From: Candidatus Chloroploca asiatica
GTDB lineage: Bacteria; Chloroflexota; Chloroflexia; Chloroflexales; Chloroflexaceae
Assembly: GCF_002532075.1 (NCBI RefSeq)
Contig: NZ_LYXE01000066.1
Location: forward strand, 1 to 64,000
Length of the DNA stretch: 64,000 bases
Reading direction: 5' to 3'
In this document: positions 11,460 through 56,581 of the stretch, piece by piece
Position numbering within the stretch: position 1 is the first letter of the stretch
Layout of the letters: the number at the start of each line of letters is the position of its first letter
The notes under the pieces: model-generated
What the model was told of the DNA's origin: nothing
Databases searched by the model: none
The model's input: only the letters and a program-made list of their open reading frames with translations
Program-made: the position numbers and the translations under genes

Positions 11460-11474
11460 CTACCTAAACCAATA

Positions 11475-11514
11475 TTTGGCTAGGTGGCGGGCGCACGCCC
11501 GCCACCTAGCCAAA
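11475..11514. repeat. perfect 19-bp-arm palindrome
   Basis: Arms 11475-11493 and 11496-11514 are exact reverse complements around a 2-base centre. It lies between divergently transcribed ppa and accD, upstream of both promoters, so it is not a terminator of either flanking gene. It may be a REP-like element or a cruciform site. Confidence 0.7.
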
Positions 11515-11566
11515 TGGATAGCATCCTCCACTAGACCTGATAGCTTCCATCATCACAAAGAAATGC

Positions 11567-11656: not shown

Positions 11657-12586
11657 GTGAAAGAGTTTTTCCGCCGAACCAAAAAGAGTTTCCCCGCTGA
11701 TCAGAGTAGCGAACAGGCCCAGATCCCCGATGACCTCTGGGTGAAGTGTTCCTCATGCCGCGAACTGATCTATCGGAAAGAACTGAACGACAATCTCAAG
11801 GTCTGTCCCAAGTGTGGCCACCATATGCGTATGAGTGCCCGCGAGTGGATCGGCCTGCTTGATGTTGGCTCATTTAGCGAAACCGACGCGCACCTCCTGC
11901 CGACTGACCCCCTTGGCTTTGTGACCCCCGATGAGGCTTATGCGGATAAGCTGAAGAAGTCGCAACATCGCACCGGTCTCGCCGATGCCGTGCTCGCGGG
12001 TGTCGGGAGTATCGATGGGCTTTGGATGGCCCTGGCTGTCGGCGATTTCGCGTTTATGGGTTCGTCGATGGGTAGCGTCTATGGCGAAAAGATGTCTCGG
12101 GCCGCTGAACGCGGTGCCGAGCTTGGCATTCCCCTCTTGACCATCAATACGTCGGGGGGGGCGCGGCAGCAAGAGGGCGTCATCGCGCTGATGCAGATGG
12201 CCAAGGTGACGATGGCACTCAGCCGCCTCGCCGAGGCGCGTCAACCCCATATTGCTATCCTGGTTGACCCATGTTACGGCGGGGTCACCGCCTCGTATCC
12301 ATCGGTCGCCGATGTGATCATTGCGGAACCAGGGGCCAACATCGGGTTTGCCGGCAAGCGCTTGATCGAGCAGATTATGCGCCAAAAACTGCCCGCTGGC
12401 TTCCAGACTTCCGAGTTTATGTTGAACCACGGGATGATTGATATGGTCACCCCGCGTGGCGAATTACGTGATGTCCTGGCGCGTTTGTTGCAACACTATC
12501 GCCGTCAGTCACCCCCGATGGAAGAAGGTGACGATGGGATGGAAGCAACTGACGCAACGCCGATCTATGTGCATGGGAGGGTCTGA
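11657..12586 (+). CDS. accD: acetyl-CoA carboxylase carboxyltransferase subunit beta
   Basis: 309 residues. Together with AccA it transfers the carboxyl group from biotin to acetyl-CoA, giving malonyl-CoA for fatty acids and, in Chloroflexales, for the 3-hydroxypropionate bicycle. The N-terminal zinc ribbon is intact (C31, C34, C50, C53), followed by the crotonase-fold core with TSGGARQQEGVIALMQMAK and YGGVTASY. The GTG at 11657, ten bases after GGAAAG, is favoured over the TTG at 11648, which lies too close to that site. The stop overlaps the accA start (TGATG). Confidence 0.93.
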   Translation: MKEFFRRTKKSFPADQSSEQAQIPDDLWVKCSSCRELIYRKELNDNLKVCPKCGHHMRMSAREWIGLLDVGSFSETDAHLLPTDPLGFVTPDEAYADKLKKSQHRTGLADAVLAGVGSIDGLWMALAVGDFAFMGSSMGSVYGEKMSRAAERGAELGIPLLTINTSGGARQQEGVIALMQMAKVTMALSRLAEARQPHIAILVDPCYGGVTASYPSVADVIIAEPGANIGFAGKRLIEQIMRQKLPAGFQTSEFMLNHGMIDMVTPRGELRDVLARLLQHYRRQSPPMEEGDDGMEATDATPIYVHGRV

Positions 12587-13446
12587 TGGATCAACTCGAT
12601 ACGCCCCATGTTCCGGTCGAGTTGACGCCCTGGGATCGGGTACAATTGGCCCGCCATCCCCAGCGCCCTCATTCGCTCGATTATATTTTCGCGCTCTGCG
12701 AAGATTTTGTGGAACTCCACGGTGACCGTCGTTTTGGCGATGATGCGGCAATCGTCGGCGGGATGGCCTCGTTTGGCAACCGGACGGTAATGGTGATCGG
12801 GCATCAGAAGGGCAATGATACCCGCGAGAATATGAAGCGTAACTTTGGCATGCCCCATCCCGAAGGGTATCGTAAAGCCCAACGCTTGATGCGCCACGCC
12901 GAAAAGTTTGGCATTCCTGTGCTCTGTTTTGTCGATACCCCTGCCGCCGATCCAAATAAAGAGTCGGAAGAACGCGGCCAGGGCAATGCGATCGCCGAGA
13001 GCATCCAACTGATGACGGTGCTCAAGACACCAATCGTCGTGACGGTGATTGGCGAAGGTGGAAGCGGTGGAGCCCTCGCGCTTAGCGTTGGCGACCGCAT
13101 CTTGATGCAGGAAAACTCGATCTATTCGGTCGCTTCACCCGAGGCCACGGCCTCGATCCTGTGGCGCGATGCCGCCCGCGCCCCCGATGCAGCACGAGCC
13201 CTCAAATTGACCGCCCAGGATCTCTACGCGCTCGAAATTATCGACGAGATCATCCCTGAAGTCCCCGGTGGCGCCCATACCGATCGCCTCGCAACCATGG
13301 CTACGGTCGGTAAACGCATTGCGGCGCACCTTGAAGATGTCTGCGCCCTTGACCTCGAAATTCTGATGCGTCAGCGCTATGACAAGTATCGCCGCATCGG
13401 ACATTACGAAGAGCAGCAGAGTTTCGCTGGGCGCGGGTTCTTATAA
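12586..13446 (+). CDS. accA: acetyl-CoA carboxylase carboxyltransferase subunit alpha
   Basis: 286 residues, slightly shorter than the E. coli subunit because the N-terminal helix region is reduced. Diagnostic segments: LCEDFVELHGDRRFGDDAAIVGG, HQKGNDTRENMKRNFGMPHPEGYRKA, PGAYP-equivalent FVDTPAADPNKESEERGQ and IGEGGSGGALAL. The C-terminal part carries YSVASPEATASILWRD. It forms the heterotetramer with AccD and is translationally coupled to it by a one-base overlap. A very long hairpin ends the operon at 13463-13515. Biotin carboxylase and BCCP genes are not in the window. Confidence 0.93.
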   Translation: MDQLDTPHVPVELTPWDRVQLARHPQRPHSLDYIFALCEDFVELHGDRRFGDDAAIVGGMASFGNRTVMVIGHQKGNDTRENMKRNFGMPHPEGYRKAQRLMRHAEKFGIPVLCFVDTPAADPNKESEERGQGNAIAESIQLMTVLKTPIVVTVIGEGGSGGALALSVGDRILMQENSIYSVASPEATASILWRDAARAPDAARALKLTAQDLYALEIIDEIIPEVPGGAHTDRLATMATVGKRIAAHLEDVCALDLEILMRQRYDKYRRIGHYEEQQSFAGRGFL

Positions 13447-13462
13447 TACACGCCCAAAACTT

Positions 13463-13515
13463 GTTGCATTGCACGAAAAAAGCCAGCTACGCTGGCTTTT
13501 TTCGTGCAATGCAAC
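13463..13515 (+). terminator. extended hairpin terminator after accA
   Basis: A perfect 25-base inverted repeat with a 3-base loop. The core AAAAAAGCCAGC / GCTGGCTTTTTT is an ordinary bidirectional terminator, but the stem goes on for another 13 base pairs outside the A and T tracts (GTTGCATTGCACG). Confidence 0.85.
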
Positions 13516-15607: not shown

Positions 15608-16993
15608 ATGGATCAGCTGAAGTTGACGCGGCGACAGATGCTACGGATGATGCTCGCTGGAGGCAGCGTGGCAGCCCTCGCTGCGTGTGGGACGTCCCCG
15701 GCGGCCCCAACGGCCCCCACCGATGCCCCAGCGGCCCCGGCCGCCGCCACAGGCGCTCCGGCCCAGGTGAGCCAGACCGGTTCAACCGTAACGATTACCT
15801 ACTGGGGTTCGTTCAGTGGCAATCTTGGTGAAGCCGAGCAAGCTATGGTGCAACGTTTCAACGAGTCACAGAGTGATATTGTCGTTGATTACCAGTTCCA
15901 GGGAAGCTACGAAGAGACGGCACAAAAATATACCGCTGGCCTGCAGGCGAATACGATACCCGATCTCATCCTGCTTTCGGATGTCTGGTGGTTCGGGTTT
16001 TATGTCGCCGGTGCGATCAGTGAACTCGATGGATTGGCACAGCAGGCCGGGTTGGATTTCAGTGACTACGAGCCAGTCCTGCTCAACGAAGGCAACCGCC
16101 AGGGCAAACAGTTCTGGATCCCCTTTGCCCGCTCGACTCCGCTCTTTTATTACAACAAAGACCTCTGGGCCGAGGCGGGGTTGCCTGATCGTGCGCCCGA
16201 GACCTGGGCCGAGTTTGGCGAGTGGGCCCCACAGTTGCTTCAGCGCGAGGGGAACACCTTACGTCGCTCGGCGTTTGTGCATCCCGATGGGGCCAGTTAC
16301 ATCGCCTGGCTCTTCCAGGGCGTCACCTGGCAGCACGGTGGGAAGTATTCGAATGACGACTTCACGATGACCATGACTGACCCGAATACGATCCGCGCCG
16401 CCCAGTTTTATCAGGACACCGTGCGTGACCTGGGATGGGCCACCCTCGGGCAAGACATCAACCGTGATTTCCTCGGCGGGGCTGCCGCTGCGATGATGGC
16501 CTCGACGGGCAGCCTGGCCGGGCTAACAACAAATGCAACCTTCCCGGTTGGCGTCGGCTTTTTGCCCAAAGAGGCCAACTTTGGCTGTTGTACCGGCGGT
16601 GCTGGTCTGGCTATTCCGAGCGGCATTCCCGACGAGAAGAAACTGGCGGCCATGACCTATATTGCCTTTGCCACCAATACCGAGCAGGCCGGTGCCTGGG
16701 CGCGCGATACGGGCTATATGCCGGTGCGTATCAGTACCAAACAGACACCGGATATGGTCGCGTTTTTCGAGGAAAATCCGAACTTCAAAACAGCCGTCGA
16801 TCAGTTGCCCCTGACTCGCGCCCAGGATGCTGCCCGCGTCTTTGTCCGCAACGGCGACCAGATCATTGGCAAAGGCCTCGAGCGCATCATTGTGAACGGG
16901 GAAGGGCCCGCTACCGTGTTTGCCGATATTGACGCTGAACTGACCCGAGCAGCCGAGCCGATCCTGGAGGATCTCCGCGAGGTTGAGGGATAA
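15608..16993 (+). CDS. ugpB: ABC transporter substrate-binding lipoprotein, UgpB type
   Basis: 461 residues. The signal has a Tat-like RRQMLRMMLAGG and a lipobox LAAC, then an Ala/Pro/Thr linker. The body is SBP_bac_1: ITYWGSFSGN, FNESQSDIVVDYQFQGSYEETAQKY and the UgpB-like VWWFGFYVAGAISELDGL. An AAAGGAG site precedes the ATG. It closes the ugpA-ugpE-ugpB unit and would capture glycerol-3-phosphate or a glycerophosphodiester, though other sugars cannot be excluded. The stop codon is already inside the terminator hairpin shared with convergent pnp. Confidence 0.87.
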   Translation: MDQLKLTRRQMLRMMLAGGSVAALAACGTSPAAPTAPTDAPAAPAAATGAPAQVSQTGSTVTITYWGSFSGNLGEAEQAMVQRFNESQSDIVVDYQFQGSYEETAQKYTAGLQANTIPDLILLSDVWWFGFYVAGAISELDGLAQQAGLDFSDYEPVLLNEGNRQGKQFWIPFARSTPLFYYNKDLWAEAGLPDRAPETWAEFGEWAPQLLQREGNTLRRSAFVHPDGASYIAWLFQGVTWQHGGKYSNDDFTMTMTDPNTIRAAQFYQDTVRDLGWATLGQDINRDFLGGAAAAMMASTGSLAGLTTNATFPVGVGFLPKEANFGCCTGGAGLAIPSGIPDEKKLAAMTYIAFATNTEQAGAWARDTGYMPVRISTKQTPDMVAFFEENPNFKTAVDQLPLTRAQDAARVFVRNGDQIIGKGLERIIVNGEGPATVFADIDAELTRAAEPILEDLREVEG

Positions 16994-17043
16994 AAAAGGA
17001 GGCGTCTCGGCCAGCACGTGCTGGTCGAGACGCCTCCTTTTTT
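16992..17043. terminator. bidirectional 26-bp-arm hairpin between ugpB and pnp
   Basis: Left arm 16992-17017 and right arm 17018-17043 pair fully except for one G-T pair, with six A on one side and six T on the other. The centre GGCCAGCAC/GTGCTGGTC shows the same GCCAG core as other hairpins here. It serves both convergent genes and overlaps the ugpB stop. Confidence 0.85.
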
Positions 17044-19927: not shown

Positions 19928-19970
19928 CATATGCAATGGGCCAGGGCATAGCCCTGGCCCATTGCATATG
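19928..19970 (-). terminator. 20-bp-arm hairpin after the 19972-20835 gene
   Basis: Arms 19928-19947 and 19951-19970 are perfect complements around ATA. It begins two bases after the stop of the minus-strand secreted-protein gene and separates it from rpsO. No T tract, but the GGGCCAG core is the same as in the other hairpins. Confidence 0.75.
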
Positions 19971-19971
19971 C

Positions 19972-20835
19972 TTAAATCCCGGGGCGGCAACCAGGCGGAT
20001 CAATTTCGAGGTGGCGCAGTCGTCCCTCAAAATATTGATCGGTGGAGGGACTATAGCCGATAAAGAGCTCATCAGGATGACGCAACGGCCCATTGCTCAG
20101 GCTGCGCTGCGCCGTCCAGCTCATGCTACCGGGCTGCACAAACTGGCTTGGCACACCATCAGCCGGCAGTTTGGCAAAGAAGCCTTCCCAATCAGGGACA
20201 TATTCCATCACCGGTACACCCGCCTGGGTCAACGCCTGCCCAATTGCGGTAATGCTCGATCCACCGGCCCCAAGCGCAAACTGATTCCCATACAGATTGG
20301 GAGCCCAGGGCGAAGTCTGATACTGATCGCCATAGATCCAGAAGTTCGTGCGAAGCTGCGAACCCTGGGGGGTCAACCCAAAGGCGAAGTCACGCGTACC
20401 CTTGCGCACCGCCTCAACAAGTGGATAACTGCGCTTTTTGGTATCGAGCCGAACATCAGCACCCATCCAGAACAAAGGCTCACGCATCCCGCCCGCATAC
20501 GCACATTGACAAGGAGGTGGGAGCTCACAGCGAATAGACGTCTTGCCATCAAAGATCGCATACCCATCAGGATCAAAGGTCAACTGGCCCCGGATCTGAC
20601 AATTATTCGTGATATCAGTCTGTTGCAGATCCGCAATGACCACCGGATTGGAACTTTTGAGGATATAGTGTGTATACACAACCTGCAACTGCTCGTTGGG
20701 AAAGTCCACCCTGAGATGCCACGCCGAGAGTTCGGAACTGCCAGCGGCATGCGTAGGCATCGCCGCAAAGAGGGTTACGAACAAGATCACAACAACCAGC
20801 ATTAACTGAAAACGTACACGGGAGAGGGAACGCAT
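19972..20835 (-). CDS. secreted protein of unknown function
   Basis: 287 residues with a clean signal peptide (cleavage near MPTHAAGSS). The mature part has paired cysteines (TNNCQIRG, IRCELPPPCQCAYAGG) that could form disulfides outside the cell. The last 60 residues, with LRHPDELFIGYSPSTDQYFEGRLRHLEID, recall the closing strands of LamG/concanavalin-like domains, but I would not assign a family. Not lipidated. Single gene with its own terminator-like hairpin. Confidence 0.65.
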   Translation of the reverse strand: MRSLSRVRFQLMLVVVILFVTLFAAMPTHAAGSSELSAWHLRVDFPNEQLQVVYTHYILKSSNPVVIADLQQTDITNNCQIRGQLTFDPDGYAIFDGKTSIRCELPPPCQCAYAGGMREPLFWMGADVRLDTKKRSYPLVEAVRKGTRDFAFGLTPQGSQLRTNFWIYGDQYQTSPWAPNLYGNQFALGAGGSSITAIGQALTQAGVPVMEYVPDWEGFFAKLPADGVPSQFVQPGSMSWTAQRSLSNGPLRHPDELFIGYSPSTDQYFEGRLRHLEIDPPGCRPGI

Positions 20836-24721: not shown

Positions 24722-24816
24722 GGCGATGAACCGCGTCACAGACTGATGTAGTGTGTCAACGAAGTTCCCCGATGCTTTGCGCCCCGAGAGCGAGAGCGTC
24801 TCGCCCTCGGGGGCGT

Positions 24817-24857
24817 GCGAGGGCGAGACGCCCTCGCTTCCAGGAATGTCGAAAAAC
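24817..24857. repeat. 41-bp dispersed repeat, copy 1
   Basis: Matches 52858-52898 at 35 of 41 positions, every difference being a transition. The left part (GAGGGCG..CGCCCTC) is palindromic. A further inverted stretch to its left (from about 24790) makes a larger hairpin in the gap before the FAH gene. Confidence 0.7.
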
Positions 24858-28260: not shown

Positions 28261-30285
28261 ATGAAGGGGTTCCTGGTTCCTGCTGGTTTGCTCGCTGCCG
28301 CACTTACGCTCTGGATTTTTGCCTATCAGGTACCATTCCGTCAGGTGATCCACGTCGGTGGCGATGTCACGACTCAGCGCCGCTTTGATGATCAACCTTT
28401 TTTACTGCGGGTCAATGGCTCTGAACCTGCTGATCGCGTGGCTGATCCCGACCAACCCGAGGTGTGGCTCTGGTGGTGGGAGGTGCTTGAACGTACGGGT
28501 GGCCGTTCGTACCGCTGGACAACCGCTGAGTCAACCCTGCTGGTGCCTGGGATCGGTGGCCAGACCTACCTGGTTGAGCTTGTGGCAGGCGGTCAACCTG
28601 GTGGGGTGGTGACAACATGGGAGACCGGGGAGGGACTGCGCACCACGCTATTCTTGCCCGAGGGAGACCCGCGCCGCTACCGGCTCCTCGCGGCCACCGA
28701 GCGCAATGGTGATCTCCGCATCATTATGCGCACGCCCCCATTTGAAGCCCCCGGTGATCGGCGTGAACTCGGTTTTGTGCTCTATGATCTTCGTATGCAA
28801 GGGGTTAATCAGGGGTTACACATCCCTGCCTGGCCGCAACTGCTCTGGCTCAGTGTGGCGTTGCTCGCCCTCTATGCCTGGGTGCTGGCCGCTGGGGCTA
28901 GCCTCGGTGGGGCGGTTGCGCTGACCAGCCTTGCCATCCTCGCAGGAGCAGCAACCCTGATCTGGCAGCGCCCCGCCCTCACCCTCTTTACCAGCCTGAT
29001 CGCCCAGTTAACCCTGATCGGGGCGACAACAACCCTGATCGCCGCATGGGCCGCCCGCTCTTTTGGTGAGCGCCATCGGCTCGTGGCTGGCATCGCACCG
29101 GTTGTCGGACTGGTAACAGCCGCCTTTGCGCTCCGCATGGCCGGTATGCTCCACCCACACGCCCTGTACAGCGATACGATGCTCCAGGCCAATAAGCTCT
29201 TTGAGGCCAGCCTCGGGCAAATCTTTATGACGGCCGGCTTGCCAACAGCGACCGGAGGCGGAGTAGGGCCGTATCCGCCGGCCCCCTTCCTGATTATGAT
29301 GCCGGCAATGCTCCTGGTTGAGTCGAGTGCGGCCAACCGCGTCCTGATAGTGCAGACTGGAACGGCCCTGCTCGATAGCCTGGTGATGGTCGCCCTCTGG
29401 GTGATGCTACGACGCGCTGGTTATCGTCAGCGGGTGGCCTTGCTTGCCCTGACAGGCTATCTGCTGCCCGTGACGGCCCTCGAATCTTTTTCCGTGGGTG
29501 AACTCGCCAATCTGAGCGGGCAAGCGCTGGCGATCCCGCTGCTGCTGCTGCTCGCCCTGGGGGCAGGAGCACGTCCGACAGGCCATAGTGTTACCCGGCA
29601 CGCGCCTGCGCTGGTCAGCCTCCTTGTCGTCGCGCTTGCCGTTGCCCTCGTCGCCCACTCAGGGATCACGCTCTCGATCGGGGCGGTGATGGCCTCGGCC
29701 TGGCTGATCGCCCTGATCGACTACCTACGCCAGCGCCATGGCCCCTTCGACCTCGTGCGGCTGAGCCTGGTTGCCGCTTTGGCCCTCGGGTTCGTGCTGG
29801 TCTTCTACTACACAGCCCCCGTCTACCTTACCAGCCTGCGTGAGCGTGGCGGAAGTGAAGGGGACAGGGGGATGGCGTTGTCCGCGATTGTGGTCGAGAC
29901 CGCCAGGGGCATCCTCGGGTTGGCCCCACCAGGGCGACGGGCCATTCCGATCCCGTTTGTGCTGAGCCTCGCGGCCCTCGGTGGGCTCGCGCTGATCTGG
30001 GCACAACGGAACCAGCAACCCCGCGCACGAGCCTTACGCGCCACGCTGCTCGTCTGGTGGCTCGGTACCCTGATCACCCAGGGCTTGCTACTCGTCGCCG
30101 ACCAGGGCGTGCGTTGGGGGCTCTTCCTCTACCCGGCCCTCTGCCTGAGTGCGGGGCCATTGCTCGGAGCCTTCTGGCAACGCGGGCGGGCGGGCAGACT
30201 GGTGAGCAGGCTGATGGTTGCCTTCATCATCAGCTACGGCATGATGCACTGGATCATCCAGGTACGCGATTATTTTCACATCTAA
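28261..30285 (+). CDS. large polytopic membrane protein, GT-C-like
   Basis: 674 residues. One N-terminal membrane anchor, a periplasm-type soluble domain (about 30-190, with VWLWWWEVLERTGGRSYRW), then about 12 helices. HPHALYSDTMLQANKLFEAS near residue 300 puts an acidic residue in the first big loop, as in GT-C glycosyltransferases that use polyprenyl-linked sugars, but I see no specific family signature. The ATG at 28261 follows AAAGGCGGGG; an upstream GTG at 28231 overlaps the SMR gene. Last gene of the envelope run, ended by a 24-bp-arm hairpin. Confidence 0.6.
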   Translation: MKGFLVPAGLLAAALTLWIFAYQVPFRQVIHVGGDVTTQRRFDDQPFLLRVNGSEPADRVADPDQPEVWLWWWEVLERTGGRSYRWTTAESTLLVPGIGGQTYLVELVAGGQPGGVVTTWETGEGLRTTLFLPEGDPRRYRLLAATERNGDLRIIMRTPPFEAPGDRRELGFVLYDLRMQGVNQGLHIPAWPQLLWLSVALLALYAWVLAAGASLGGAVALTSLAILAGAATLIWQRPALTLFTSLIAQLTLIGATTTLIAAWAARSFGERHRLVAGIAPVVGLVTAAFALRMAGMLHPHALYSDTMLQANKLFEASLGQIFMTAGLPTATGGGVGPYPPAPFLIMMPAMLLVESSAANRVLIVQTGTALLDSLVMVALWVMLRRAGYRQRVALLALTGYLLPVTALESFSVGELANLSGQALAIPLLLLLALGAGARPTGHSVTRHAPALVSLLVVALAVALVAHSGITLSIGAVMASAWLIALIDYLRQRHGPFDLVRLSLVAALALGFVLVFYYTAPVYLTSLRERGGSEGDRGMALSAIVVETARGILGLAPPGRRAIPIPFVLSLAALGGLALIWAQRNQQPRARALRATLLVWWLGTLITQGLLLVADQGVRWGLFLYPALCLSAGPLLGAFWQRGRAGRLVSRLMVAFIISYGMMHWIIQVRDYFHI

Positions 30286-30286
30286 G

Positions 30287-30339
30287 TTTTGTACATGCAA
30301 AAAAGGCCAGCTAAACTGGCCTTTTTTGCATGTACAAAA
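30287..30339. terminator. extended bidirectional hairpin, 24-bp arms
   Basis: Arms 30287-30310 and 30316-30339 pair perfectly around CTAAA. Core AAAAAAGGCCAG/CTGGCCTTTTTT with a 12-bp outer stem TTTTGTACATGC outside the A/T tracts. Serves the convergent genes ending at 30285 and 30344. Confidence 0.85.
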
Positions 30340-39753: not shown

Positions 39754-39776
39754 GCGCAGAAACTCGCTGATAGTGG

Positions 39777-39807
39777 CACAAACGGCCAGCCAAGCTGGCC
39801 GTTTGTG
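39777..39807 (+). terminator. hairpin after the LTD gene
   Basis: Arms CACAAACGGCCAGC (39777-39790) and GCTGGCCGTTTGTG (39794-39807) with loop CAA, 24 bases after the stop. Shares the GGCCAGC core. Confidence 0.8.
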
Positions 39808-39835
39808 TTACTATTACCATAGAAGGGTAAAGCAT

Positions 39836-50665: not shown

Positions 50666-51073
50666 ATGGAAACGCAGAGCATCACCCTGGCCCGTGCCAC
50701 GCCTGGACGTTTGATTACCGCTAATCTTGATGGAAGTCTGAACCTTGTCTGGGATGAGGCGACGATACGCATTGCGCTCTATGATCTTGGGCACCTGGCG
50801 ATGCTGCTCGATGAATGGTGCGCCGAAGAAGAGCCGGGTTTCCTCCGCTGTGGCTACTACCAACTGATGCAGAGCCCCGACGGCGGTATTCAACTCTGGC
50901 TCAATAAAAGCGGGCTCTGCTTGAGTCGGGATGATCTCCAGATCTTGACTGGCTTGATCCGCACCGCCGAGGCATTGCTCGAAGCACCGATCCCAACGCA
51001 ACCAACCCTGCCGTTTGGACCGGGGTATCACCGGCTCGCGGCCCCCGCCCGCAACCGTCAGTGGGCGAATTAA
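50666..51073 (+). CDS. conserved-looking protein of unknown function
   Basis: 135 residues, soluble. No family recognised. Noticeable features: a mixed alpha/beta composition, ITANLDGSLNLVWDEATIRIALYDLGHLAMLLDEWCAEEE, two cysteines, and a DDLQILTGLIRTAEALLEAP helix near the end. It follows the ferredoxin-like gene by 39 bases and so may be its partner. It ends in the nested hairpins at 51073-51167. Confidence 0.6.
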   Translation: METQSITLARATPGRLITANLDGSLNLVWDEATIRIALYDLGHLAMLLDEWCAEEEPGFLRCGYYQLMQSPDGGIQLWLNKSGLCLSRDDLQILTGLIRTAEALLEAPIPTQPTLPFGPGYHRLAAPARNRQWAN

Positions 51074-51129
51074 GGCTTGTGCTGGCGTAAACGGCCAGCA
51101 CAACTGGCCGTTTACGCCAGCACAAGCCT
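51073..51129 (+). terminator. 26-bp-arm perfect hairpin
   Basis: Arms 51073-51098 and 51104-51129 pair perfectly around CACAA, starting at the last base of the stop codon. Core ACGGCCAG/CTGGCCGT. The arm itself contains GCTGGC, echoing the core. Confidence 0.85.
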
Positions 51130-51140
51130 AGGTTTTTAGG

Positions 51141-51167
51141 AAGACGGCCAGCTGTGCTGGCCGTCTT
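51141..51167 (+). terminator. second hairpin, intrinsic terminator
   Basis: AAGACGGCCAGC (51141-51152), loop TGT, GCTGGCCGTCTT (51156-51167) followed by TTG. Only 11 bases after the previous hairpin and with the same ACGGCCAG core. Confidence 0.8.
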
Positions 51168-53585: not shown

Positions 53586-53771
53586 TAGGGCGATTGCATC
53601 ATACGAAATCGGAGACAACGGGGCACCCGCAAGGGGTGCCCGTACCGGGGCGGGGCACCCGCAAGGGGTGCCCGTACCGGGGCGGGGCCGCATCCGGTGT
53701 AGGGGCACCCCTTGCGGGTGCCCCTGCGGGGGCCTTGGCAGGGTGCCTACACGGAAGATGCAATCGCCCTA
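53586..53771. mobile_element. 186-bp MITE-like element inside the sulfur operon
   Basis: Perfect 15-base terminal inverted repeats, TAGGGCGATTGCATC (53586-53600) and its complement (53757-53771). Inside are two tandem 32-base units (53621-53652 and 53653-53684) and further GGGGCACCC/GGGTGCCCC palindromes. No coding capacity. It sits between dsrE2 and the rhodanese gene. A solo end is at 45927. Confidence 0.7.
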
Positions 53772-54761: not shown

Positions 54762-56528
54762 ATGGCATCATCACCGTCGCTTGCGGGTCGAGCGGCATCG
54801 GCGGCTCAGGCCAAAGGTCTGGGCCGTTACTTTCCCTTCACCCGCTGGCTCTTCAACTATCGTCGGGAAGATCTGCCGAGTGATCTGGTCGCCGGGATTG
54901 TGACGGCCATCATGCTCATTCCTCAGAGCATGGCCTATGCCCAACTCGCCGGATTGCCCCCGCAGATCGGATTGTACGCCTCGGTTGTGCCGTTGATCAT
55001 CTATGCGCTGCTCGGAACCTCGGGGCAACTCTCGGTGGGGCCCGTCGCGATCACCTCGCTCTTGGTCTTTAGCGGGGTCAGTACGCTCGCCGATCCGGGA
55101 AGTGCGCGCTATATCCAGTTGGTGCTCTTGCTGGCCTTGATGGTTGGTGTAGTCAAATTGCTCCTTGGGCTCTTTCGTATGGGTGTGATTCTTAACTTTA
55201 TTTCGCACCCGGTCTTAGCTGCGTTTACGACTGCTTCGGCATTAATTATTGCAGCCGGGCAACTAAAATATATTCTGGGATACCCAATTGCTGGCCCCCA
55301 TATTTATGATATTTTGTATAATGCTATTGTCGGCCTTGGCATGACGAATCCGGTCACGCTAACGATCGGAGGAGCCAGTATTGCAATGCTGCTCTTCTTC
55401 CGCAAGAAGCTGCGGCCGATCTTGCAAAAAGCGGGGTTGAATCCGCTTGCCGTGACGCTGATCGTGAGTGGTGCGCCGCTGGTGACGGTTTTGCTTGGCT
55501 CGATTGTCACCTGGGCCTTGCGGCTCGATCTAACAGCCGGGGTAGCGGTCGTCGGCAGCATTCCGGCTGGTCTCTCACCACTGAGTTGGCCTTCACCAAA
55601 TGTGGCTGATGCCCAGGCGTTGATGCCCGCGGCAGCGGCAATTATCCTGGTGAGCGTCGTTGAGTCGATCGCCGTTGCCAAAGCGCTGGCGAGCAAGCGC
55701 CGTGCGGTGATTGATCCCAACCAGGAACTGGTCGCGCTTGGTGCCGCGAATATTGCGGCTGGCCTCTTCAGCGGGTATCCGGTCACCGGTGGTTTCGCGC
55801 GCTCGGTGGTCAACTATCAGGCCGGTGCGATCACCGGACTGGCGTCGCTGGTGACGGCGGGTGGCATTGCGTTGATCCTGCTCTTTTTTACCCCGCTCTT
55901 CTACTTCTTGCCGCAGGCAGTGCTGGCGGCGACCGTCATTGTGGCCGTCTTTGGGCTGGTCGATCTGAAAGAGCCGGCGCACATTGCGCAGGCCAACCGG
56001 AGCGATGCAGCGACGTGGGGCATCACGTTTGCAGCGGTGCTTTTGCTGGGCATTGAAGCAGGGATCTTTGTTGGGGTCGGCGTCTCGCTGGCACTCTACC
56101 TCTGGCGCACCAGCCGCCCACACATCGCCGTCGTTGGACAGATCGGCGAGAGTGAAGTCTACCGCAACATCTTGCGCTACGACGTCAAAACCTGGCCGCA
56201 CGTCGTCGCCGTCCGAGTCGACGAAAGCCTCTATTTCGCGAACACGCGCTATCTCGAAGACGAACTGCTGCGCATTGTCGCGGAACGACCCGAGGTGAAA
56301 CACCTGGTCTTGATTGGTTCGGCGATCAACTTCATCGACTCGAGCGCGTTGCACACGCTTGAAGCGCTGATCCAGAGCCTGCGCGACGCTGGGGTGCAAC
56401 TACACCTCGCCGAAATCAAAGGCCCCGTCATGGACGGCCTGAAACGGGCGCACTTTGTTGACAAACTCGGCACCGAGCATATTCATCTGACCACGCATCA
56501 GGCGATGCGAACGCTAGGCTGTGCGTAA
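54762..56528 (+). CDS. SulP-family sulfate permease with STAS domain
   Basis: 588 residues. LPSDLVAGIVTAIMLIPQSMAYAQLAGLPPQIGLYASVVPLIIYALLGTSGQLSVGPVAITSLL is the classical sulfate-permease signature; then PNQELVALGAANIAAGLFSGYPVTGGFARSVVN and a STAS domain (about 455-570, VLIGSAINFIDSSALHTLEAL). At the end of a sulfur-oxidation operon it may export sulfite/sulfate or import sulfate. It differs clearly from the 34688 SulP (no Cys/His tail, different loop sequences). Ended by a 23-bp-arm hairpin. Confidence 0.9.
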   Translation: MASSPSLAGRAASAAQAKGLGRYFPFTRWLFNYRREDLPSDLVAGIVTAIMLIPQSMAYAQLAGLPPQIGLYASVVPLIIYALLGTSGQLSVGPVAITSLLVFSGVSTLADPGSARYIQLVLLLALMVGVVKLLLGLFRMGVILNFISHPVLAAFTTASALIIAAGQLKYILGYPIAGPHIYDILYNAIVGLGMTNPVTLTIGGASIAMLLFFRKKLRPILQKAGLNPLAVTLIVSGAPLVTVLLGSIVTWALRLDLTAGVAVVGSIPAGLSPLSWPSPNVADAQALMPAAAAIILVSVVESIAVAKALASKRRAVIDPNQELVALGAANIAAGLFSGYPVTGGFARSVVNYQAGAITGLASLVTAGGIALILLFFTPLFYFLPQAVLAATVIVAVFGLVDLKEPAHIAQANRSDAATWGITFAAVLLLGIEAGIFVGVGVSLALYLWRTSRPHIAVVGQIGESEVYRNILRYDVKTWPHVVAVRVDESLYFANTRYLEDELLRIVAERPEVKHLVLIGSAINFIDSSALHTLEALIQSLRDAGVQLHLAEIKGPVMDGLKRAHFVDKLGTEHIHLTTHQAMRTLGCA

Positions 56529-56534
56529 ACATAT

Positions 56535-56581
56535 TTTGCTCACCAAAAAAGCCGGCTTAGCCGGCTTTTTTGGTGAGCAAA
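56535..56581 (+). terminator. extended hairpin after sulP
   Basis: Arms 56535-56557 and 56559-56581 are perfect complements. Core AAAAAAGCCGGCT/AGCCGGCTTTTTT, and an outer stem TTTGCTCACC beyond the A/T tracts. Ends the sulfur operon. Confidence 0.85.

Follow-up and report, generated by a model that had tools for sequence, protein, structure and literature searches.

Long hairpins at gene ends in the window

The window is the stretch of 64,000 bases analysed here, the first part of the 87,052-base contig C65 in the 5.84 Mb genome of Candidatus Chloroploca asiatica (G000). Candidatus Chloroploca belongs to the Chloroflexota and comprises filamentous phototrophs that do not evolve oxygen (anoxygenic). 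An Rfam search of the window returned only three tRNAs. Seven very long perfect hairpins had been predicted at gene ends, and all seven were present where they had been placed. Five of them are perfect; 16992–17043 contains one G-T mismatch, and 39777–39807, perfect over its 14 bp, extends outward to 21 bp (39770–39814) with two G-T pairs. Each of the seven folds as a single stem (−35 to −54 kcal/mol, z −8.8 to −13.9). The hairpins, to which no strand is assigned, are as follows:

11474–11515: perfect hairpin absent from the earlier list, 20 bp arms, without the GCCAG core but of the same class; also in G001
13463–13515: perfect hairpin, 25 bp arms, loop TAC, A6-GCCAGC core, 16 nt past the stop of an accA-like gene (12586–13446, + strand)
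16992–17043: hairpin of 26 pairs including one G-T, A6/T6 at the outer ends, convergent genes on either side
19928–19970: perfect hairpin, 20 bp arms, without T tract, 1 nt off the stop of the gene at 19972–20835 (− strand)
30287–30339: perfect hairpin, 24 bp arms, A6-GGCCAG core, flanked by convergent genes with their ends at 30285 and 30344
39770–39814: hairpin, 14 bp perfect (39777–39807), 21 pairs in total with two G-T
51073–51129: perfect hairpin, 26 bp arms, beginning on the last stop-codon base of the gene at 50666–51073 (+ strand)
51144–51164: second, short hairpin with the same core as its neighbor at 51073; core GGCCAGCTGTGCTGGCC at 51146–51162
56535–56581: perfect hairpin, 23 bp arms, A6-GCCGGC core, 6 nt past the stop of a sulfate permease gene (54762–56528, + strand)

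The convergent genes around 16992–17043 encode a solute-binding protein (+ strand) and PNPase (− strand), and 11474–11515 is flanked by divergent genes. Gene positions were taken from simple, crude gene calls, so single assignments of gene context may be wrong.

Abundance of perfect hairpins

Two further genomes of the genus were compared with G000, those of Candidatus Chloroploca mongolica M50-1 (G001) and Candidatus Chloroploca sp. Khr17 (G002). The hairpin statistics cover 487 kb of G000 (8%); the samples from G001 and G002 amounted to 430 kb and 661 kb, respectively. Counts of sequence words cover whole genomes. The 487 kb of G000 contained 61 perfect hairpins with arms of 14–30 bp, i.e., 12.5 per 100 kb, and in 42 of these the arms were at least 18 bp long. 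Extrapolated from this sample, the whole genome would hold about 700 perfect hairpins with arms of at least 14 bp. By the same measure, the density was 13.0 per 100 kb in G001 and 12.0 in G002, and it was similarly high in the genomes G006 (12.1) and G033 (12.0). Four other Chloroflexales genomes had only 1.2–3.0 per 100 kb (G003 2.6, G025 1.2, G026 3.0, and G030 1.2), and E. coli had 2.0, with no arms of at least 18 bp in the 100 kb sampled. The samples outside Chloroploca were 77–140 kb each.

The first 464 kb of G000 held 58 perfect arms of at least 14 bp and 41 of at least 18 bp, and one order-3 Markov shuffle of these 464 kb contained none even of 12 bp. The hairpin set is therefore real and far above chance, and a chance origin of the arm lengths is already refuted. 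The original prediction had set this family apart from normal terminators by its arm length, and the arms are indeed far longer than those of E. coli.

Gene context, cores, and T tracts

The hairpins were located mostly 0–40 nt past stop codons. In the gaps between tandem genes, their median distance was ~20 nt from the upstream stop, compared with about 110 nt (92–132 nt) from the start of the following gene. The number of hairpins per kb of intergenic sequence was highest in convergent gaps (2.4, 1.7, and 3.0 in G000, G001, and G002) and lowest in divergent gaps (0.9, 1.0, and 0.45). Some of the hairpins in divergent gaps are part of composite repeats with common flanks. Composite hairpins that have both flank and core in common were observed at L028 11933, L205 1422, L012 9073, L022 5540, L028 4329, and window position 51073, some of them between divergent genes; these may represent a true dispersed repeat subfamily.

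The GCCAG core, described earlier as common to the family, was found at about a third of the hairpins (a CCAGC-type tip in 20/61) and is not set-wide. Likewise, the terminator-like A6/T6 flanks hold for about a quarter and not for the rest: at least four T in the loop-proximal 3′ arm were present in 14/55 intergenic hairpins of G000, 14/53 of G001, and 19/68 of G002. Because of these proportions, neither the core nor the T tract defines the whole set, and only a minority can be described as terminators whose stems are over-long. Ordinary bidirectional intrinsic terminators share with the Chloroploca hairpins the position at gene ends, the GC stem and, in about a quarter, the T tract, and a minority has A6/T6 around the core and lies between convergent genes. 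However, the T tract directly after the stem that marks intrinsic terminators is not a trait of the set, about three quarters being without it, and the stems extend 7–20 bp past what a terminator needs. Together with the empty Markov shuffle and the lack of arms of at least 18 bp in E. coli, this makes ordinary terminators with long arms by chance close to untenable as an explanation.

The exact word AAAAAAGCCAGCnnnGCTGGCTTTTTT occurred in 34, 39, and 31 copies in the three Chloroploca genomes (G000, G001, and G002), but was absent from the reversed control and from 38 further genomes belonging to the family and order; it was found singly in many unrelated bacteria. The related count for GGCCAGCnnnGCTGGCC was 53, 60, and 47 copies. 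A different hairpin family, TTGGCGGCnnnGCCGCCAA, reached 227, 80, 201, and 260 copies in G006, G021, G013, and G024 of the same family, and 10–14 copies in the Chloroploca genomes; the reversed control contained no copy. On neither strand of its core is the GC stem followed by a run of T, so that it is no standard terminator. Sister genera thus have similar hairpin families with cores of their own (the GGCGGC core in G006/G021 and G013/G024).

Repeated cores could also reflect a mobile palindrome family of the REP or MITE kind, spread by a transposase. This would agree with the genus-specific core (31–39 exact A6/T6 copies per genome), the common flanks of some composite hairpins, and five matches to Y1 transposases in the genome. 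However, none of the five Y1 loci was flanked by these hairpins, and the GTAG/CGTC tag was not above background at the hairpin feet (5/122, 8/112, and 12/158, or 4–8% vs 6–7%). Moreover, the outer stems differ between most loci, and most hairpins keep the same place in all three species. A REP/RAYT origin is thus not supported, and transposase-driven spread in general is highly improbable. REP elements with RAYT transposases resemble the present set as short palindromes with many intergenic copies, but their stems are mostly of 6–9 bp (PMC3733652), whereas the Chloroploca hairpins have 14–30 bp, no tag, no flanked transposase, and locus-specific outer stems.

Other repeats were also noted. A short palindromic repeat at window positions 24789–24845 (AGCGAGAGCGTCTCGCCCTCG...) recurs at dozens of scattered places in G001 and G002, and a dispersed repeat of ~200 bp (L022 15472–15675) has many copies in the same two genomes. 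A repeat of the GGGGCACCCCTTGCGGGTGCCC type lies at window positions 53652–53724, and similar repeats at L285 2895–3101 adjoin a Y1 transposase match; this type may be a REP/RAYT-type element. Palindromes of the form AGACCTCACAGGTCT, a different repeat, were seen at two places in the sample (L023 10823–10857 and L024 3842–3874).

Paired change of the arms between species

Orthologous hairpins were aligned, anchored on both flanks, in three pairwise comparisons. The comparisons overlap, and the changes are not polarized because only three genomes were used. Between G000 and G001, 665 pairs were the same, 33 differed on one side, 35 differed on both sides with pairing kept, and 4 differed on both sides without pairing. 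The corresponding numbers were 678, 45, 46, and 2 for G000 and G002, and 910, 56, 72, and 5 for G001 and G002. If the arms changed independently, 1.4, 2.4, and 2.8 paired double changes would be expected instead of the 35, 46, and 72 observed (P 2e-36 to 2e-74). Matched pair changes were thus 20–26 times above the independent expectation, and the claim that the outer stems of related genomes co-vary as pairs was borne out.

The window hairpins illustrate this. In the orthologues of 13463–13515 in G001 and G002, the outer stem is changed in pairs; the hairpin reads TTGCATTGCACG with loop TAC in G000 and TTCTTTGCGCG with the inverted loop GTA in G001, both fully paired. Paired changes were also present in the G001 orthologue of 19928–19970 and in the outer stem of 30287–30339 in G001, the latter being unpaired in G002. 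The 39777 hairpin is GTAACAC..GTGTTAC in G001, GTGGCAC..GTGCCAC in G002, and a mixed GTGGCAC..GTGTTAC in G000. With GG..TT at this place, 39770–39814 in G000 stands between the two perfect sister states (AA..TT in G001 and GG..CC in G002). At L028 15662, the core is common to the three genomes, which carry three different outer stems, each fully paired. Block replacement was rejected as the main mode of change, as the paired changes were mostly isolated (34/35, 44/46, and 65/72 non-adjacent).

The arms changed about as fast as their flanks. Per-site divergence of the arms, counted as doubles plus half the singles, was 0.075, 0.091, and 0.101 for G000–G001, G000–G002, and G001–G002, compared with 0.076, 0.096, and 0.090 for the flanks; with intergenic flanks only, the first two flank values were 0.077 and 0.105. 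If the arms copied one another, a pair would change at the neutral rate of a single site. The paired changes had no transition bias and leaned to transversions (ts:tv 15:20, 21:25, and 29:43). Single mismatches in tandem contexts, summed over the three comparisons, comprised 14 G-U, 16 A-C, and 38 transversions; within these small counts from overlapping comparisons, no excess of G-U over A-C was found. Hairpins with and without a T tract changed alike.

Loop inversions

Loops were compared where the innermost pairs were unchanged but the loop differed. Exact reverse complements made up 8/20 of the changed loops between G000 and G001, 3/18 between G000 and G002, and 7/22 between G001 and G002, compared with permutation means of 0.9, 0.55, and 1.0 (P 0 of 20000, 0.012, and 0 of 20000). 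Examples are TAC/GTA, TTC/GAA, TCC/GGA, and TGAT/ATCA. The orientation of the loops relative to the upstream gene was balanced (TAC 7 and GTA 6, TTC 3 and GAA 3, ATT 3 and AAT 3, TAT 3 and ATA 3). Assembly error was judged unlikely as the source of the flips, since hairpins of about 40–60 bp should fit within single reads.

The paired changes and the loops together bear on selection for an RNA stem, according to which the long stem is needed to protect the 3′ end, for processing by RNase III, or to terminate transcription, with compensatory mutations restoring its pairing base by base. The position just past stop codons, the strong paired covariation, and the very stable folds all suit this explanation. 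Compensation in RNA is expected to proceed via G-U pairs on the transcript, which favors transitions. Yet the pairs change at flank speed, including transversions that would cross a deep fitness valley, and single mismatches have no G-U excess. Nor does RNA-stem selection predict exact loop inversions or balanced loop orientation; selection on an RNA loop would not produce such inversions. The substitution pattern, having neither G-U bias nor loop-orientation bias, therefore gives an RNA role of the long stem no support, and we consider this explanation quite unlikely. It is plausible that the hairpin itself has a function in RNA, given its position after stop codons.

A proposed mechanism: hairpin-templated DNA synthesis

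We propose that these are gene-end hairpins whose arms probably evolve in concert by hairpin-templated DNA synthesis. During synthesis past a palindrome, the nascent strand would fold back or switch strands, so that one arm would template the other before synthesis returned to its original template. A point mutation would thereby be copied to the other arm or erased, leaving perfect arms at no cost in substitution rate. A switch spanning the loop would leave the loop flipped, and occasional copying of adjoining unique sequence would lengthen the stem and give it a locus-specific outer part. One clear case of such an extension from the flank was found, at L028 15662, where the outer right arm matches the flank kept in G002 at 6/7 bases and the left arm at 1/7. 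The arms change in concert at flank-like rates, the loops invert, and one arm has been recruited from its flank; the suggestion that the elements arise by a hairpin-templated DNA process is thus well supported. Hairpin-templated synthesis predicts the whole pattern of arm rate, pairing, loop flips, balanced loop orientation, and lack of G-U bias, and RNA-level selection predicts none of it. As the arms appear to copy each other, paired changes need not mean that an RNA shape is kept by selection.

Other forms of DNA exchange between the arms, such as cutting and rejoining of a cruciform or inverted-repeat recombination, would flip loops and convert arms equally well. Alone, however, they would not lengthen arms into the flank, as in the one case above, and we regard them as unlikely; the agent is inferred to be template switching rather than such an exchange.

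Loss of ExoVII (xseA) or SbcD was rejected as the cause of the abundance: both genes were found in each of the nine genomes checked (xseA and sbcD), hairpin-rich and hairpin-poor alike, so no enzyme loss explains it. Loss of Rho as the reason for many hairpins was likewise rejected. In G000, two full-length matches to rho exceed the family cut-off (C181:66826–68058 and C135:13651–14736).

Mutation alone leaves the position at stop codons, the common cores, and the other cores of sister genera unexplained, and therefore selection or core spread must also act. Plausibly, selection keeps a short, stable hairpin at the gene end, and DNA templating adds perfect, over-long, locus-specific outer stems as a by-product; the data support the DNA part only. 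The quarter with a T tract are probably bidirectional intrinsic terminators, and the hairpins without one probably form stable 3′ ends that halt exonucleases. For the outer stem, no function of its own need be assumed.

Relation to known systems

No paper on these Chloroploca hairpins was found in the literature searched. In yeast, homogenized arms and inverted spacers have been attributed to switching of the polymerase between short inverted repeats as templates (Abraham & Hazkani-Covo 2021, PMC8604942), and that report refers to older data from bacteria, where template switching favored transversions. Template switching has also been put forward as the process by which the RNA hairpins of rRNA and microRNA arise and are maintained (Monttinen & Loytynoja 2022, PMC8794818); loop inversions in rRNA were described there as very rare. 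The Chloroploca hairpins have two traits of this process, matched pair changes and inversion of the spacer with the arms unchanged. What is shared with template switching, or quasipalindrome correction, is homogenization of arms and inversion of a loop between unchanged arms; its reverse-complement extension of stems may be represented by the one clear case at L028 15662. Those reports concern scattered events, whereas the present case is a large set of gene-end hairpins in one genus, changing at about the flank substitution rate. Template switching is a known mechanism; what is unusual here is the scale, and the near-neutral rate, at which it would act at gene ends.

Plastid 3′ inverted repeats form stable hairpins past genes and have minute loop inversions between species; they differ from the present set in being found in plastids and at few loci. 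Repetitive hairpin-forming elements of sponge mitochondria, as described in PMC2800124, are also hairpin repeats in intergenic DNA, but mitochondrial. In bacteria, according to a 2026 census, perfect inverted repeats had more variants than expected in the spacers and fewer in the arms, an effect that was strongest near terminators (PMC13155455); loop flipping could contribute to this spacer excess.

Implications

Some Chloroflexota lineages carry long perfect hairpins at five to six times the E. coli level, which raises the question why. Possibly, though at somewhat less than even chances, hairpin templating in Chloroploca and some sister genera is so frequent that gene-end palindromes stay perfect and are renewed at the neutral rate, each lineage having its own core and showing covariation without RNA selection. 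Paired covariation is the usual proof of RNA structure under selection. In this large natural set, covariation proceeds at a neutral rate and is accompanied by loop flips, which are not expected under RNA selection. Programs that detect RNAs by covariation could therefore give misleading results for genomes of this kind. The same hairpins offer a way to measure the frequency with which DNA synthesis in bacteria templates on its own hairpins.
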